64,000 nucleotides of DNA, taken from positions 1,976,885-2,040,884 of the forward strand of contig NZ_CP049864.1 of the NCBI RefSeq assembly GCF_011300685.1, written 5' to 3'. Below, piece after piece: positions 2,630 to 9,607 of the stretch. Position 1 is the stretch's first letter; each line of letters opens with the position of its first letter. Source of the DNA: Lysobacter sp. HDW10. Lineage in GTDB: Bacteria > Pseudomonadota > Gammaproteobacteria > Xanthomonadales > Xanthomonadaceae. Made by a program: the position numbers and the translations under genes. Below the pieces are notes generated by a model. The model saw nothing but the letters and a program-made list of their open reading frames with translations, did not search any database and was not told where the DNA came from.

Positions 2630-5515
2630 TTAGAAGCCGCGCTGATACGTCAGCATTGCGGCAGTGTTCGTGCCCAAGGTTGACGTCCGCTGACTCACAT
2701 CGAGTTTCAGCACATTGCCTTTCCCAAACTCGGTATTGAAGCCCAAGCTGTAAAGCGCGCTGTGCTTCGCGAAGCCGAGTCCTTGCACCGGCATCCAAGC
2801 GTTCAATGCGGTGAACGTCGCATTCAAGGTGTTTTGCGATGCGAGCAATTGCTGCCATTCACTGCGCAATTCAAAACCCATCCGCACGCCATTTCCCACT
2901 GTCCAACTTTGCGCTGCACGCAGGCCCGAGTAGGCTTGCCAACGGCTCGCATCGCCACCGCGGCTTCGCAGTGCAAAGCCCGTCAAACCGCCTTCATCAA
3001 AATCACGCGTTGTTGCATTGGCATACTGGGTCCCGACGTAAGGCGTCAGTCTGATGCCTGCGACGTTCACGCCGACACCCCCTTCGACACCCGCAAACGT
3101 GTAGGTGCCATGCACTTGGCTAGTCACGGTTTCGCCCAAGGCACCTAGCTGCAAATGACGTTCAATTTGGCGATCAAATCGACCTGCACCTGCAAGTGCT
3201 TGCAAAAAGGCAGAACGACCAAACCAAGCCGCGTAAATTTGTGCCTCACCCTGACGGCCGCGGCTTCGATCGCCGAACGCCGACAACCAACTATTGGTTT
3301 CCGTTGAACTGTAGGCCGCACCTAAGACACCGTTGCGTCCCCAACGCATGTCAAAGCCCGACATATTGCCTGTGACATCCATGCCCAGCGCGCTGTAGCC
3401 AGCACTGATCAAATTGCCATTGCTCTGCAATGCGTGGGACCAAGAAGCGGACGTCGCGTCACCTTGCATCAACCGATCCAACCGATCGGTCACGGTTCGA
3501 CGTCCGATATCTAAAGACTCAAACGTCATGGCTGCCGATGAAGCATGGATTTCACCACCCAAGCTTTGCAAACTCCGCTCGGCCTCTCCGCGATCTCGCG
3601 CATGTTGGAGTGATGCTGCACTCAGCACGAAGTTGGTGTTGTCCACCGCACCCACATCGATAGATGTCATGGCGGCTTCTACGCGGCCCGCACTATTGAT
3701 GGCTGCAGAAGACATCTGCGCATCGTTCGCTAACGCAGTGACTTGCAAGCGCGTGACGTTGAGATAGGCATTGTTCGCGTCATAACTCATCGTTGCATCA
3801 AGAAAAACATTCGAAGCCGTTTTTACCGTTGCGAATGTACCCGTCAAGCCGCCCAACGTATTGAGTACGGTCTCGCGGCTCTTCGAGGTGTAGCCCGACT
3901 TCTGACCCAAGATGCTTAGCTGTCCGTTGATGTTTGCGCTACCGGTCACACTGACCGTGTTGCCCACCCAAACGCCCAGATTGCCTGAGGCCGATTGCGT
4001 GTAATTGCCTGCCACGGTCACAACTGCGTTCTGGTCTGAAAAGAATTTGCCGGCATTGTCTACCCCGCCATTGAAGCGGCCTGCCGCGTACACCAAGCCG
4101 CCGCTTGCAATCGTTAGCTTCGAATTCAGACCCTTTCTTACATCCAATGCGCCCGCGTTGACGGTTGTTCCACCTGTGTAGCCTTGCGCTTCAGTGAGGG
4201 TCAAGGTGCCGGCGCCGTTCTTGATCAAGCCACCTGTGCCCGTAATCGTGTTGCGCCAGACCGAGTTGTTAGAGGGTGCAACGGTGACATTGCCCCAATT
4301 GAATTGACCCGGCCCTTTGATTGCTTTGCCTACGTCTAGCAAGCCGTAGCCAAACACCGGATCAACGCCCGGCGCACCTAAATCTTTGGCAGTGCCAAGG
4401 AGCGTTTGTCTAACCAGATCGTTATTGAAATAAGGAAACGCAGACCAAACCACGGCCGCCGCGCCTGAGACGAGCGGTGCCGCATATGAGGTGCCGCCAC
4501 CGCGCAAATAGTATTGGGCATCAGCGCTGATGTAGGTCACGATGCCCGGCGCGGTCAAACAATAGTTCATCGCGCGGCCGCATTGTTGGGACCACGACGT
4601 CAACTGCGTTGGCACCGCCGGATCCAAAGCGGCCACAGTGAGCCAACCTTTTTCCAGTTTTGCCGCATCCACTGACATGCTGGGCAATGACGCCATGTCA
4701 GATGGATTTGCTTTTAAAGCTGCAATGTCACCCGCATTGCCATTGGCGAACACCACGATGCCATCGCGGTTCAAAATGAAATCTGCAAATCCTGAAACGA
4801 TGCCAGGCGTTGCCGCGGGGTCGGTCCAGTACAAACCACCCCATGAATTGTTGGAGATTTTCGCACCTTGATCAGCAATCAGACGATGCACTTCTTTTAA
4901 GAAATTACCCATACCTGCAGCATCTGCAGGCGTGATTTCATTGCCTTGACCTGACCCGTCATCGACCGGGTCTTTATCTTGGATCATGCGCACCGACGCA
5001 ATGTTCGACAACGGCGCAACCCCGCCGCCATATTGCCCGCTGGGCGCGCCTGCGGCCAATTCTGCAACCACGGTGCCATGCGGTTTGACGTAGTCGACAT
5101 TCGCATTGTTGTCAGCCGGATCCAGTGCAAACAACGAGTACATCACTCGACCATTTAACGTGGGGTGCGTCGAATTCACGCCCGAATCCATGATTCCGAT
5201 GGTGACGCCCGAACCCTTCAAGCCATTCGCATAGCTTTGATCGGCATTGATCAGTCGCAAGTGTTCGCTGTATATCGGCTGCGTGCCAGAAGCAGGCAAT
5301 AGTGCAACGACCGTCGGTGGCGTCGCCAAGGTTTTCAAACTCAAGTCTTGTTGGACCGAGCCGAGCACCGGCGGTGGCGTGCTAGGTGTACCGCCGACCG
5401 GAGACCCACTGCCCCCGCTCGACTTCGTCCCACCGCCGCCGCCACATGCGGTCAATCCAAGTGCCAATGACGCTGTCACTGCCATCGCCAACACGTTCAT
5501 CGAACGTTTCTTCAT
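2630..5515 (-). CDS. Lipidated subtilisin-like (S8) serine protease autotransporter
   Basis: Predicted type Va autotransporter carrying an S8 protease. Starting at the ATG at 5515 (GGGGAG just upstream), the 961-residue protein opens with a lipoprotein signal ending LGLTAC, lipidated Cys24, then a Gly/Ser/Pro-rich linker. The catalytic triad is visible: Asp110 (IMDSGVNSTHP), His146 (HGTVVAELAAG) and Ser343 (GGGTSYAAP). A beta-strand repeat of the autotransporter-associated (PATR) type follows near 420-460, then a passenger stem. The last ~270 residues form the beta-barrel, ending in the required C-terminal Phe. Lipidation and architecture resemble Neisseria NalP. Transcribed alone. The substrate is unknown, and I cannot tell whether the passenger is released. 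Confidence 0.88.
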   Translation of the reverse strand: MKKRSMNVLAMAVTASLALGLTACGGGGGTKSSGGSGSPVGGTPSTPPPVLGSVQQDLSLKTLATPPTVVALLPASGTQPIYSEHLRLINADQSYANGLKGSGVTIGIMDSGVNSTHPTLNGRVMYSLFALDPADNNANVDYVKPHGTVVAELAAGAPSGQYGGGVAPLSNIASVRMIQDKDPVDDGSGQGNEITPADAAGMGNFLKEVHRLIADQGAKISNNSWGGLYWTDPAATPGIVSGFADFILNRDGIVVFANGNAGDIAALKANPSDMASLPSMSVDAAKLEKGWLTVAALDPAVPTQLTSWSQQCGRAMNYCLTAPGIVTYISADAQYYLRGGGTSYAAPLVSGAAAVVWSAFPYFNNDLVRQTLLGTAKDLGAPGVDPVFGYGLLDVGKAIKGPGQFNWGNVTVAPSNNSVWRNTITGTGGLIKNGAGTLTLTEAQGYTGGTTVNAGALDVRKGLNSKLTIASGGLVYAAGRFNGGVDNAGKFFSDQNAVVTVAGNYTQSASGNLGVWVGNTVSVTGSANINGQLSILGQKSGYTSKSRETVLNTLGGLTGTFATVKTASNVFLDATMSYDANNAYLNVTRLQVTALANDAQMSSAAINSAGRVEAAMTSIDVGAVDNTNFVLSAASLQHARDRGEAERSLQSLGGEIHASSAAMTFESLDIGRRTVTDRLDRLMQGDATSASWSHALQSNGNLISAGYSALGMDVTGNMSGFDMRWGRNGVLGAAYSSTETNSWLSAFGDRSRGRQGEAQIYAAWFGRSAFLQALAGAGRFDRQIERHLQLGALGETVTSQVHGTYTFAGVEGGVGVNVAGIRLTPYVGTQYANATTRDFDEGGLTGFALRSRGGDASRWQAYSGLRAAQSWTVGNGVRMGFELRSEWQQLLASQNTLNATFTALNAWMPVQGLGFAKHSALYSLGFNTEFGKGNVLKLDVSQRTSTLGTNTAAMLTYQRGF

Positions 5516-5678
5516 CGCACTCCCCGCTTGATGGCTTCTGATCTGCTTAATCCTGTGCGAAAGCTGAGGCGTGCGCAACAGGTAGGCGCATTCACCCGAG
5601 TCTGTTTGTCAAGACATCGCGCGGAGGCGTTCGAACCTTCATAATTGGGGATTCCCTTGCTTTTGGAAGTACCTCCTT

Positions 5679-6854
5679 ATGGGTGATGTCGTTATCGTCG
5701 GTGCCAAGCGCACAGCCATCGGCTCCATGTTGGGTCAATTCACGGGCGTGCCGACCCCGCAACTCGGTGCCACGGCCATCAAGGCCGCACTTGAGCACGC
5801 AAAGCTGTCCACCGATTCTGTGGATGAAGTCATCATGGGCTGCGTGTTGCCGGCCGGTTTGGGACAAGCACCCGCACGTCAGGCGTCATTGGCGGCAGGC
5901 CTGCCACATCGCACCGGTTGCACCACCATCAATAAGGTGTGCGGATCGGGAATGAAGGCCGTGATGTTTGCCCACGACCTGATCAAGGCGGGCACGGCCA
6001 ATGTCGTGGTTGCGGGCGGCATGGAATCCATGACCAATGCACCGCATTTGTTGAACGGTTCGCGCACGGGCATTCGCTATGGCAGTGCCGAGTTCCTCGA
6101 CCATATGGCGTGGGATGGTTTGACCAACCCGTATGACGGCAAGGCCATGGGTGTCTTCGGTGATGCGACCTGCGCCAAATTCAATATCGACCGCGACGCA
6201 CTCGACGCGTATTCGACTGAAAGCGTCAAGCGCGCACAAGAAGCCATCGCAAGTGGTGCGTTCAAAGCAGAAATCGCACCGGTCACCGTCAGCACGCGTA
6301 AAGGTGAAGTGGTTGTCGACACCGACGAAGAACCCGCGAAGATCGATTTGGCGAAAATCCCGACGCTGCGTCCTGCGTTCGGTAAAGAAGGCGTGCTGAC
6401 CGCCGCCGCCTCTTCAAAGATCTCCGATGGCGCCGCTGCTTTGGTCGTCGCTTCGCGCGAAGCCGCTGAGAAGAGCGGTGCCGAGATTTTGGCCACCGTT
6501 GTCGCGCATGCAACCAATTCACTTGCGCCGGATCAATTCACTGTCGCGCCCGTGGGTGCGATCCAGCAAGTCCTTGAGAAGGCAGGCTGGAAGGCTGAAG
6601 AAGTAGACTTGTTTGAGATCAATGAAGCTTTTTCGGTGGTCGCAATGCTGCCTATGCATGAATTGCACATCCCCCGTGAAAAGATCAATGTGAACGGTGG
6701 CGCAGTTGCATTGGGACACCCCATCGGCTGCAGCGGTGCACGGCTCTTGGTCACCCTGATTCATGCCATGCAAGCGCGTGGTGCCAAGCGCGGCGTTGCC
6801 TCGCTCTGTATCGGTGGCGGCGAAGCGACGGCGGTGGCCATTCAGATGGCGTGA
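5679..6854 (+). CDS. Acetyl-CoA C-acetyltransferase (thiolase)
   Basis: Condenses two acetyl-CoA to acetoacetyl-CoA or runs the reverse thiolysis, in the cytoplasm. The 391-residue protein carries the nucleophilic Cys88 in INKVCGSGMKAV, the GHPIGCSGAR motif, and a C-terminal CIGGGEATA motif with the second catalytic Cys. Length matches biosynthetic thiolases (AtoB/PhaA). It sits among leucine-degradation genes whose end product acetoacetate can be processed through acetoacetyl-CoA. It could equally feed PhaB encoded at 56 kb. Divergent from the autotransporter with a 163-base gap between starts. Confidence 0.9.
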   Translation: MGDVVIVGAKRTAIGSMLGQFTGVPTPQLGATAIKAALEHAKLSTDSVDEVIMGCVLPAGLGQAPARQASLAAGLPHRTGCTTINKVCGSGMKAVMFAHDLIKAGTANVVVAGGMESMTNAPHLLNGSRTGIRYGSAEFLDHMAWDGLTNPYDGKAMGVFGDATCAKFNIDRDALDAYSTESVKRAQEAIASGAFKAEIAPVTVSTRKGEVVVDTDEEPAKIDLAKIPTLRPAFGKEGVLTAAASSKISDGAAALVVASREAAEKSGAEILATVVAHATNSLAPDQFTVAPVGAIQQVLEKAGWKAEEVDLFEINEAFSVVAMLPMHELHIPREKINVNGGAVALGHPIGCSGARLLVTLIHAMQARGAKRGVASLCIGGGEATAVAIQMA

Positions 6855-6997
6855 AGACCAGCCTGAAGAGCGAATAACTAGGGACCAACGTAGTCTAAAA
6901 AAAATCCGGACAAGTCTATTGACATGGGTCACGGATTGGTCATTAATGTATCCAACGCGATTCCTCGCGTTGAACCTTTCAACTTAAGGAAATGATC

Positions 6998-7351
6998 ATG
7001 ACCTTGAATAAAGCACTGTTGGCTGCCGCCCTGGGCCTCGCCCTGACCGCTTGCTCGAACGCTGACCAAGCCGCTGACTCGGCTGCTCAAGCCAACCAAT
7101 CGGCCGCTGAAGCACAAGCCACCACGGCTGAAACCGCTGGCACCCCGGAAGCAGCTACCGCTGCTGCTGGCGCCGACGCTGCTGCAGCTAACGCTGAAGC
7201 CGCTAACAAGGAAGCCGCTGCTGCTGCCGCTGCTCCGACCGCTGCTGCTGCTGACGCACACGCTGACGCCGCTGAACAGCACGCTGAAGCCGCTGACGCT
7301 GCCGCCAAGGCAACGGAAGACGCTAAAGACGCTGGCGAAGCCAAGAAGTAA
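6998..7351 (+). CDS. Small alanine-rich lipoprotein (copy 1)
   Basis: I do not recognise a named family. The ATG at 6998 is preferred over an ATG six bases earlier because AAGGA lies seven bases upstream. The 117-residue product has a lipoprotein signal ending ALTAC with Ser at +2, which favours outer-membrane sorting. The mature part is more than half alanine with regularly spaced Asp, Glu, Gln and Lys, no proline-rich breaks except near the centre, and it ends Ala-Lys-Lys. This composition predicts one long helix able to pack as an alanine zipper, as in Lpp/OprI-type lipoproteins. It lies next to a second protein of the same design. Heavy use of GCT codons suggests high expression. Confidence 0.75.
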   Translation: MTLNKALLAAALGLALTACSNADQAADSAAQANQSAAEAQATTAETAGTPEAATAAAGADAAAANAEAANKEAAAAAAAPTAAAADAHADAAEQHAEAADAAAKATEDAKDAGEAKK

Positions 7352-7386
7352 TCCAATCGTCCAATAAGGACAATTGAGCGTTATAT

Positions 7387-7415
7387 GCGGCCGTCAATTC
7401 GTTGACGGCCGCTTT
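7387..7415 (+). terminator. Strong hairpin with UUCG loop after lipoprotein 1
   Basis: GCGGCCGTCAA and TTGACGGCCGC form a perfect 11-bp stem closed by a TTCG loop and followed by TTT. The T tract is short, so this could be a terminator or an mRNA-stabilising structure between the two lipoprotein genes. Confidence 0.65.
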
Positions 7416-7481
7416 CAGAATCCGGATCAAAACCGGTTCAACAAAAAGCTTTACACCCACTACTTAACTTTGGAGTTTTCC

Positions 7482-7886
7482 ATGAAGATCAAATTTGCTG
7501 CTCTGATCGCCGCTTCGGCCATCGCTCTCGCTGCCTGCAACGGCGCAACCGAACAAAAGGCCGACGAAGCTGCTGCTTCGGCTGACCAAGCTCAAGCTGC
7601 TGCTGGCGACGCTGCCGCTGCTGCTGGTGACGCTGCTCAAGCAACCGGCGAAGCCGCTGCTACCGCTGCTAACGCTGCTGGCGACGCCGCCGCTGCTGCT
7701 GGTGACGCTGCTGCCGCTTCGGCTGCTGCTGCAACCGCCGGCGCTGCTGACGCAACCAAGGCTGCTGCTGCTGACGCAACCGTTGCTGCTGCTGACGCAA
7801 CCGCCAAGGCTGCTGACGCTGTCAAGGACGCAGCTGCTGCGACCGAAGCTAAGGCTGACGCTGTCAAGGCTGACGCCAAGAAGTAA
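7482..7886 (+). CDS. Small alanine-rich lipoprotein (copy 2)
   Basis: The ATG at 7482 is chosen because TGGAG precedes it and a clear lipoprotein signal follows; a longer in-frame start at 7374 would bury that signal. The 134-residue product has a signal ending ALAAC with Asn at +2. The mature part is about 60 percent alanine, with a partly seven-residue-periodic Gly-Asp/Glu spacing (for example AAGDAAA) in its first half, no aromatic residues, and a C-terminal Asp-Ala-Lys-Lys. It is related in design, and probably by duplication, to the preceding gene. A role as an alpha-helical envelope lipoprotein, possibly peptidoglycan-linked through the terminal lysine, is inference from composition only. 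Confidence 0.75.
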
Positions 7887-7917
7887 TATCGCTTCCCGCA
7901 AGGGAGTCGAAACTTCT

Positions 7918-7949
7918 GAAAGGCCCGCGAAAGCGGGCCTTTCTTCTTT
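7918..7949 (+). terminator. Rho-independent terminator after lipoprotein 2
   Basis: GAAAGGCCCGC and GCGGGCCTTTC form an 11-bp stem with a GAAA tetraloop, followed by TTCTTT. This is a typical strong terminator for an abundant small mRNA. Confidence 0.9.
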
Positions 7950-7999
7950 GTATCAGTGGCAAGGTATCCTTATCTATTCTGATTTACGGTGAATTCTTC

Positions 8000-9607
8000 A
8001 TGCCCGAATTGAAGTCTCGGATAGACACTGGCTCCGCCGAATTCAAGGCGAACACGGCCTATCACGAAAGTCTTTTGGCCGAACTCAAATCGCGTCTTGT
8101 ACGCGCGGCACAAGGTGGCGGCGATGCCGCACGCGAAAAGCACGAAGCACGCGGCAAGTTGTTGGCACGCGAACGCATCACTGCCCTACTCGATCCGGGC
8201 GCACCGTTTCTCGAATTGAATGCACTGGCTGCAGAAGACATGTATGACGGCGCAGCCCCCGCTGCAGGCATCGTGACCGGCATCGGTCGGGTGATGGGTC
8301 AGGAATGTGTGCTGGTGGCCAATGATGCGACGGTCAAGGGTGGCACCTATTTCCCAATGACCGTCAAAAAGCATTTGCGCGCACAAGAAGTGGCGCTTGA
8401 AAACCGCTTGCCCTGCATTTATTTGGTGGACTCCGGCGGCGCCTTCTTGCCGCTGCAAGATGAAGTTTTTCCGGACAAAGAACATTTCGGTCGCATCTTC
8501 TACAACCAAGCGCGCATGAGTGGCGAAGCCATCCCGCAAGTCGCGGTTGTGATGGGCAGTTGTACGGCAGGCGGCGCGTATGTGCCTGCGATGTGCGATG
8601 AAAGCATCATCGTGAAGAATCAAGGCACGATCTTCTTAGGTGGCCCACCGCTCGTGAAAGCTGCGACCGGTGAAGTTGTCGACGCCGAAGCCTTGGGTGG
8701 TGCAGATGTGCACACGCGTGTTTCCGGCGTTGCTGATCACCTGGCGGAAGACGACCACCACGCATTGGCGATCGCGCGCGACATTGTTTCGACCTTCAAT
8801 CGTGGCAAGCCGAAAGTGGCAGAGTTGCGCGCACCGGTGGAACCCAAGTTCAATGCGCGCGAGCTGTACGGCATCGTGCCGCAAGAAGCGAGAATTCCGT
8901 TTGATATTCGCGAAGTGATTGCGCGTTTGGTGGATGGCAGCGAGTTTCAAGAATTCAAGGCGCGTTACGGCGCTACCTTGGTCTGTGGCTTTGCGCATAT
9001 TCATGGCTGCCCGGTCGGCATCATCGCGAACAACGGCATCTTGTTTTCAGAGTCGGCGCTGAAGGGCGCGCACTTCATTGAGTTGTGCAATCAACGCAAA
9101 ATTCCCTTGGTGTTCTTGCAAAACATCACCGGCTTCATGGTCGGCAAAAAGTATGAGAATGCCGGCATTGCACGCGACGGCGCAAAGATGGTGACGGCTG
9201 TGGCGTGCTCGAATGTGCCGAAATTCACGGTGGTGATCGGTGGCAGTTTCGGCGCAGGAAACTACGCGATGTGTGGCCGTGCCTACGGCGGCAGGTTTCT
9301 GTGGATGTGGCCGAATGCACGCATCAGTGTGATGGGTGGCGAGCAAGCTGCCAGTGTTTTGGCCACGGTAAAGCGCGACGGTATCGAGTCTCGTGGCGGT
9401 GCATGGTCGGCGGAAGAAGAAGAAAACTTCAAAGCGCCGATCCGTGCGCAGTATGAAGACCAGGGCAATCCCTATCATTCCACCGCACGCCTTTGGGATG
9501 ACGGCATCATTGATCCAGCTGACACGCGTCGCGTCTTGGGCTTGGCTTTGCATGCATCTTTGAATGCGCCGATCGAACCCACGAAGTTCGGCGTGTTCCG
9601 GATGTGA
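8000..9607 (+). CDS. liuB: 3-Methylcrotonyl-CoA carboxylase, carboxyltransferase (beta) subunit
   Basis: Transfers the carboxyl group from carboxybiotin to 3-methylcrotonyl-CoA, giving 3-methylglutaconyl-CoA. The 535 residues show the two crotonase-fold halves of biotin-dependent carboxyltransferases. Acyl-CoA-binding and oxyanion glycine-rich stretches are visible ([16 protein letters not shown] near 195, [15 protein letters not shown] near 415). Its length and the neighbouring liuA, liuC and liuD favour methylcrotonyl-CoA over propionyl- or geranyl-CoA. Its biotin-carrying partner is liuD, 7 kb downstream, so the two subunits are split by unrelated genes. The last codons lie nine bases before hscC. 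Confidence 0.92.

Follow-up and report, generated by a model that had tools for sequence, protein, structure and literature searches.

The window analyzed here is a stretch of 64,000 nucleotides (positions 1976885-2040884) from a complete genome of 2.18 Mb. It carries two adjacent genes for small alanine-rich lipoproteins, called copy 1 and copy 2 below, which lie between a thiolase gene and a carboxyltransferase gene together with a promoter, a leader element, and two hairpins, as follows.

5679 to 6854, plus strand: upstream neighbor, an acetyl-CoA acetyltransferase-type thiolase (named by reading; conserved synteny)
6919 to 6947, plus strand: copy 1 promoter, with TTGACA at 6919-6924, a 16-nt spacer, and the -10 region CATTAAT (CATSAT in the family), based on conservation
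6953 to 6972, plus strand: palindromic element of the 5' leader, CAACGCGA-TTCC-TCGCGTTG, close to where transcription is predicted to start (58 copy-1 leaders aligned)
6998 to 7351, plus strand: copy 1, an alanine-rich lipoprotein of 117 amino acids with predicted lipidation at Cys19 and a Lys-Lys end (open reading frame, orthologues at the same site, AF2 model)
7387 to 7412, plus strand: UUCG-loop hairpin after copy 1, with an 11-bp perfect stem and a short T-run here; a plain terminator in many relatives
7482 to 7886, plus strand: copy 2, an alanine-rich lipoprotein of 134 amino acids of the XAC1346 type, with predicted lipidation at Cys19 and a Lys-Lys end (open reading frame, orthologues)
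7918 to 7943, plus strand: intrinsic terminator after copy 2, with an 11-bp GC-rich stem and a T-run
8000 to 9607, plus strand: downstream neighbor, a methylcrotonoyl-CoA carboxylase beta-type carboxyltransferase (named by reading; conserved synteny)

Both open reading frames fall exactly where the original prediction had placed them. The start of copy 1 was set at 6998; an in-frame ATG at 6992 was not chosen, as it lies too near the ribosome-binding site and homologues begin MT(L/M/F)NK. Copy 1 reads MTLNKALLAAALGLALTA/CSNADQ...EAKK, where the slash marks lipobox cleavage, and copy 2 ends in ...DAKK, so that the Lys-Lys terminus described earlier is present in both. The lipoboxes are as clean as had been claimed (LTA/C followed by Ser at +2 in copy 1, and LAA/C followed by Asn in copy 2), and both proteins thus carry a lipobox and an outer-membrane lipoprotein signal of the kind found in Lpp and OprI. 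Since neither has Asp at +2, the E. coli Lol rule predicts sorting to the outer membrane, and no Asp was seen at +2 among the listed +2/+3 residue pairs of homologues. Alanine makes up 56 of 117 residues in copy 1 and 72 of 134 in copy 2, and about half of each mature part, in agreement with the earlier description. Aromatic residues had been noted as missing from copy 2; Phe, Trp, and Tyr are in fact absent from the mature parts of both copies, and copy 1 has a few His residues. Across the homologue sets, the median net charge is -16 for copy 1 and -13 for copy 2, with median mature lengths of 101 and 107 residues. Overall, we consider this identity and anatomy of the pair to be highly probable.

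Because matches between alanine-rich proteins can be compositional, flanking genes were used to assign orthology. With copy 2 as the query, matches were obtained in 23 of 60 relatives, and the same thiolase and carboxylase beta genes flank most of the loci so matched. The region upstream of the carboxylase was taken from named contigs and approximately 100 genomes of the family, and alanine-rich lipoprotein reading frames were read off; by carboxylase, the nearest named relatives are Luteimonas, Pseudoxanthomonas, Dyella, and Thermomonas, which places the host among the Xanthomonadaceae as a member with a small genome. The usual order in many genera is thiolase, copy 1, copy 2, carboxylase beta. 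In genomes whose carboxylase shows no more than about 72% identity at best, this gene is found at another site, and the order thiolase, copy 1, copy 2 is kept. The thiolase is 67 to 91% identical in the loci searched, although its synteny with the pair probably reflects no functional link. A search for homologues in other Xanthomonadaceae, proposed with the original prediction, thus found the pair conserved in the family at the same site, and the two window genes are local members of this conserved lipoprotein pair. Gene number at the site varies from three in some genomes to one in others, the single-gene loci including those of Dyella, Rhodanobacter, Luteibacter, and Frateuria. The loci with three tandem alanine-rich lipoprotein genes (L011, L141, L145, and L162) indicate that the array expands and contracts. 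Orthologues from Dyella and Frateuria (L029, L034, L040, and L043) have a Pro/Ala/Ser-rich tail that should not be helical, while their first approximately 25 mature residues are still conserved. Near the locus, positions 2630-5578 of the minus strand encode a large protein with a lipobox-like N terminus that, by eye, resembles a subtilase-type autotransporter.

GCT-biased codons, a UUCG-loop hairpin between the genes, and a strong terminator after them had been taken as signs of abundant products, and all three were confirmed. GCT accounts for 61% of the alanine codons in copy 1 and 72% in copy 2; its share is 10% over ten further genes of the window and 15 to 21% for rpsL, rpsG, and a portion of fusA. 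The bias runs in the same direction as in the latter genes but is much stronger, and repeat expansion may therefore add to it. Other preferences of the two copies (GAC 100%, GAA 100%, ACC dominant, AAG preferred) agree with those of the highly expressed rpsL, rpsG, and fusA. The UUCG hairpin occurs once within the window, and the 130-nt intergenic RNA between the copies folds at -40 kcal/mol (z -4.8). A perfect stem of at least 8 bp lies downstream of 69 of 87 copy-1 genes, and perfect stems follow 75 of 93 copy-2-type genes. As a GC-rich hairpin with a T-run ends many copy-1 genes, the two genes probably have their own transcripts or share one only in part. An Rfam scan of 6800-8050 returned no match. 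Codon use, hairpin, and terminator make both copies look like abundant products, and both are predicted from these features to be probably abundant in the cell.

The promoter of copy 1, TTGACA-N16-CATSATG, is exceptionally conserved across the family. TTGACA was found at the right distance upstream in 77 of 87 copy-1 genes, where shuffled sequences would give 0.8; most of the remainder have TTGACT, the form found in the deepest relatives. CATCAT or CATGAT stands at a spacing of 16 in 68 of the 87. A palindrome related to that at 6953-6972 is present in 41 of 87 copy-1 leaders and in 18 of 93 copy-2 leaders (0.03 expected for copy 2), and its presence in the latter fits a tandem duplication of the whole unit. 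This element is either an mRNA-stabilizing hairpin or an operator, with a covariation term of only -0.12, and is followed on its 3' side by a conserved GACGAGGA-like ribosome-binding stretch.

The original prediction likened the pair to the alanine-zipper lipoproteins Lpp and OprI. The control sequences, Lpp from E. coli and OprI from P. aeruginosa, were validated by their own model scores: Lpp gave 89.5 bits on PF04728, OprI gave 44.8 bits on PF11839, and the two gave 57.1 and 67.3 bits, respectively, on NF040598. Copies 1 and 2 matched none of these three models, and kinship with Lpp and OprI is thus not supported. At an E value of 0.01, NF040598 matched 0 of 79 aligned members (39 copy-2 members and 40 others), none of the 39 copy-2 members matched any Pfam family, and individually scanned relatives missed the Lpp/OprI models, the Pfam scan covering the copy-2 set and these single relatives. 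Many NF040598 matches in 60 relatives fell under the cutoff and none exceeded it, and such sub-cutoff matches also occurred in unrelated control genomes. A genome search with PF11839 gave no match to any control, and hmmscan with OprI as the control took its place; OprI as a direct query in the host genome gave a best E value of 0.11, within long reading frames. Whether the genome holds an Lpp gene had been posed as a check on the earlier reading, and no recognizable Lpp was found there by a search that detected the E. coli control. Pfam Endomucin and Mucin matches on copy 1 were below cutoff and were set aside as compositional.

Periodicity also separates the pair from Lpp and OprI. When charged and polar positions were examined by Fourier analysis in 87 copy-1 and 93 copy-2 proteins, a peak far above shuffled sequences appeared at 99 degrees, or 3.64 residues; for Lpp and OprI, the charged and polar sets gave 101.5 to 104 degrees (3.46 to 3.55 residues). 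The heptad coiled coil implied by a zipper would require a period of 3.5, and the value in both families is 3.64. The window proteins themselves peak at 98.5 to 99.5 degrees, within the helical range, and are significant alone only for copy 2. Regular spacing of charged residues, as claimed originally, therefore holds for copy 2 (P 0.0045, helix window) and strongly for both families as sets, while copy 1 taken by itself gives only a suggestive P of 0.10. A period of 3.64 is close to 11/3, the value for helices of LEA proteins and apolipoproteins, and relatives give weak, sub-threshold Apolipoprotein and ApoLp-III matches, so that an LEA-like stress or desiccation protectant exported to the periplasm might be envisaged. 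Those matches are within composition noise, however, no LEA model was matched, and the promoter looks to be of a plain sigma-70 type; we regard such a protectant as distinctly unlikely.

A rod-like shape, as in the zipper proposal, is not what structure prediction returned. The AF2 monomer model of copy 1, built from 40 sequences, is a compact three-helix bundle with helices at 4-45, 52-78, and 82-116, including the signal peptide (mean pLDDT 87, pTM 0.74), although AF2 can be overconfident on alanine-rich sequence. The helices are interrupted at 46-51 and 79-81, where the alignment columns hold the most Gly/Pro and the most gaps: Gly/Pro makes up 11.6% of loop residues but 1.5% of helix residues, and there are 6.4 versus 1.2 gap boundaries per column. 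Copy 2 was modeled poorly (pLDDT 71, pTM 0.43), Gly/Pro does not mark its predicted loops, and a sequence search of the PDB with copy 2 gave no match. Structural matches to copy 1 (Foldseek/VIA) were antiparallel helical bundles, none convincing as a relative; those to trypanosome surface proteins, with Z up to 15, were read as a common three-helix arrangement and not as kinship.

An alanine-rich composition without aromatic residues and with tandem repeats has also been described for the meningococcal lipoprotein Ag473 (PMC3402496), and surface-exposed lipoproteins of this kind, displaying repeated helices outside the cell, would account for the drift of tails and lengths among homologues. 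The likeness to neisserial Ag473/NMB1468 extends to one same-locus homologue from an order-level relative (L018), which matches the Ag473 model NF047840 over its full length at 31 bits (E 3.5e-7). This best homologue nevertheless stays below the cutoff of 100 bits, and few members of the pair match at all: one weak match was found in 39 and one in 40 aligned members. Moreover, the copy-1 core is well conserved, with a mean column identity of 63%, unlike a typical exposed antigen. Surface exposure is thus rather unlikely.

The peptidoglycan stem is attached to the C-terminal Lys of OprI and Lpp (PMC10434034). The original prediction tentatively extended this to the pair, with an L,D-transpeptidase joining the side chain of the terminal Lys to meso-DAP and the two proteins replacing Braun lipoprotein. 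Such a tether is suggested by the Lys-Lys end of both copies in a genome with no recognizable Lpp, and one or more Lys-ending proteins are encoded at each of the 13 own-genus loci read. Lack of an L,D-transpeptidase had been named as part of what would speak against it, and four YkuD proteins were found: two L,D-transpeptidases with SHGC(I/V)RM, one YkuD_2 protein with SYGCPA, and one further YkuD, so that the cross-linking chemistry is available. Among them, L021 is nearest to LdtE- and PRK10260/PRK10190-type models and has a peptidoglycan-binding domain, while the YkuD_2 protein, L023, carries a motif of the SXGChA type, proposed for lipoprotein-releasing enzymes (PMC10434034), but is not a recognized YafK. 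L022 and L023 are neighboring YkuD-type genes (G000:C1, about 795400-797400), with SHGCVRM in one and SYGCPA in the other. For noncovalent wall tethering, the genome encodes Pal and an OmpA-type protein.

The lack of conservation of the lysine itself argues against the tether. A Lys end was found in 44 of 87 copy-1 and 45 of 93 copy-2-type proteins, so about half of the homologues are without the presumed cross-linking residue, and 34 of the 79 family genomes with a scored locus have no Lys-ending member; these counts are descriptive, as genomes share phylogeny and are not independent. The tail N(N/T)DGx, seen in eleven copy-1 proteins, has K as x in four, Q in four, and N, L, or M in one each. 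Nor are Lys ends associated with an L021-type transpeptidase (19/34 versus 26/45, Fisher P 1.0). The pair resembles Lpp and OprI, the latter alanine-rich too, as small, helical, putatively abundant outer-membrane lipoproteins with a C-terminal Lys in the host species. It differs in having approximately 100 to 115 mature residues versus about 60, no model match, no heptad period, a terminal Lys that is not conserved, and an antiparallel bundle as the predicted shape of copy 1. With family models, periodicity, predicted shape, and last-residue conservation all failing to support replacement of Braun lipoprotein, we consider an Lpp-like tether unlikely. Lys-Lys ends are, however, commoner (37 of 87 copy-1 and 40 of 93 copy-2 proteins) than the 3 to 5% overall frequency of lysine predicts, and this enrichment, with a Lys-ending protein at each of the 13 own-genus loci, would allow for attachment in some lineages. 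In those that keep Lys-Lys, including the host, the pair, though no relative of Lpp, might be facultatively linked to peptidoglycan with a bundle and not a rod as a spacer, a convergent tether of the outer membrane that is gained and lost through a single residue; we see this as a long shot.

The pair also resembles the XAC1346 family. NF052675 ("XAC1346 family secretion chaperone") was matched, below cutoff, by 15 of 39 aligned copy-2 orthologues; window copy 2 itself gave no match up to E 10 (cutoff, 120 bits). One relative genome reaches 176 bits, with the order thiolase, MTINKLLIAMALGLALTAC...EEAKK, and then XAC1346-like MKTIRMLSLSAITALTLAAC...HPQH, which places the XAC1346-type gene downstream of thiolase and copy 1 (L207-L209). 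Likeness to this family thus lies in gene order, the lipobox, and alanine-rich acidic helix-formers, and difference in the missed model and a Lys-Lys end versus PQH in the 176-bit homologue. If the name and the matches to it were taken at face value, the proteins would be cytosolic secretion chaperones, and XAC1346 would have been studied before. Fattori et al. reportedly described two hypothetical secretion chaperones of X. citri in 2011, and the model name presumably goes back to that paper. XAC0419, for which the 2011 chaperone paper is cited, is now annotated as an HPF/RaiA ribosome protein (PMC8508651). The NF052675-matching protein of the 176-bit locus (L207:1501-1824) has a signal peptide and a lipobox (LTLAAC) and should therefore be exported and lipidated, and its gene adjoins thiolase and not a secretion operon. 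A literature search on XAC1346 and on Lpp in Xanthomonas returned nothing useful. A cytosolic chaperone is hardly credible, and the NCBIfam product name, unfitting for a lipoprotein, looks wrong.

The explanation we favor, at a little under even confidence, is that the pair acts noncovalently as abundant acidic helical proteins of the outer membrane. Copies 1 and 2 would leave the cytoplasm through Sec and receive their lipid at Cys19; with no Asp at +2, they would then be carried by Lol to their predicted location in the outer membrane. The mature part (about 100 to 115 residues, net acidic, about half Ala) would fold into amphipathic helices. In copy 1, three such helices would probably pack on the membrane into a compact antiparallel bundle, as its predicted fold suggests, and copy 2 would form a looser helical array. 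Both would be made in large amounts from the conserved TTGACA-N16-CATSAT promoter and from mRNAs with structured ends. They may form an abundant, highly soluble, acidic layer at the outer membrane that serves as a filler or stabilizer and is perhaps holdase-like, as LEA or apolipoprotein helices are, with no lysine-linked peptidoglycan tether. This specific role is the more tentative part of the proposal. Some Dyella/Frateuria-type tails, being Pro/Ala/Ser-rich, would be nonhelical and weigh against it.

Overall, we conclude that the pair represents real, conserved, and probably abundant outer-membrane lipoproteins of Xanthomonadaceae that are as yet uncharacterized. The pair bears on the way in which the Xanthomonas family keeps its outer membrane in place without a recognizable Braun lipoprotein. 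The present survey turns a loose analogy to Lpp into testable statements on the species in which a lysine link is or is not feasible and on the promoter that drives the two genes, and the only database name of the pair, "secretion chaperone," looks to be in error.
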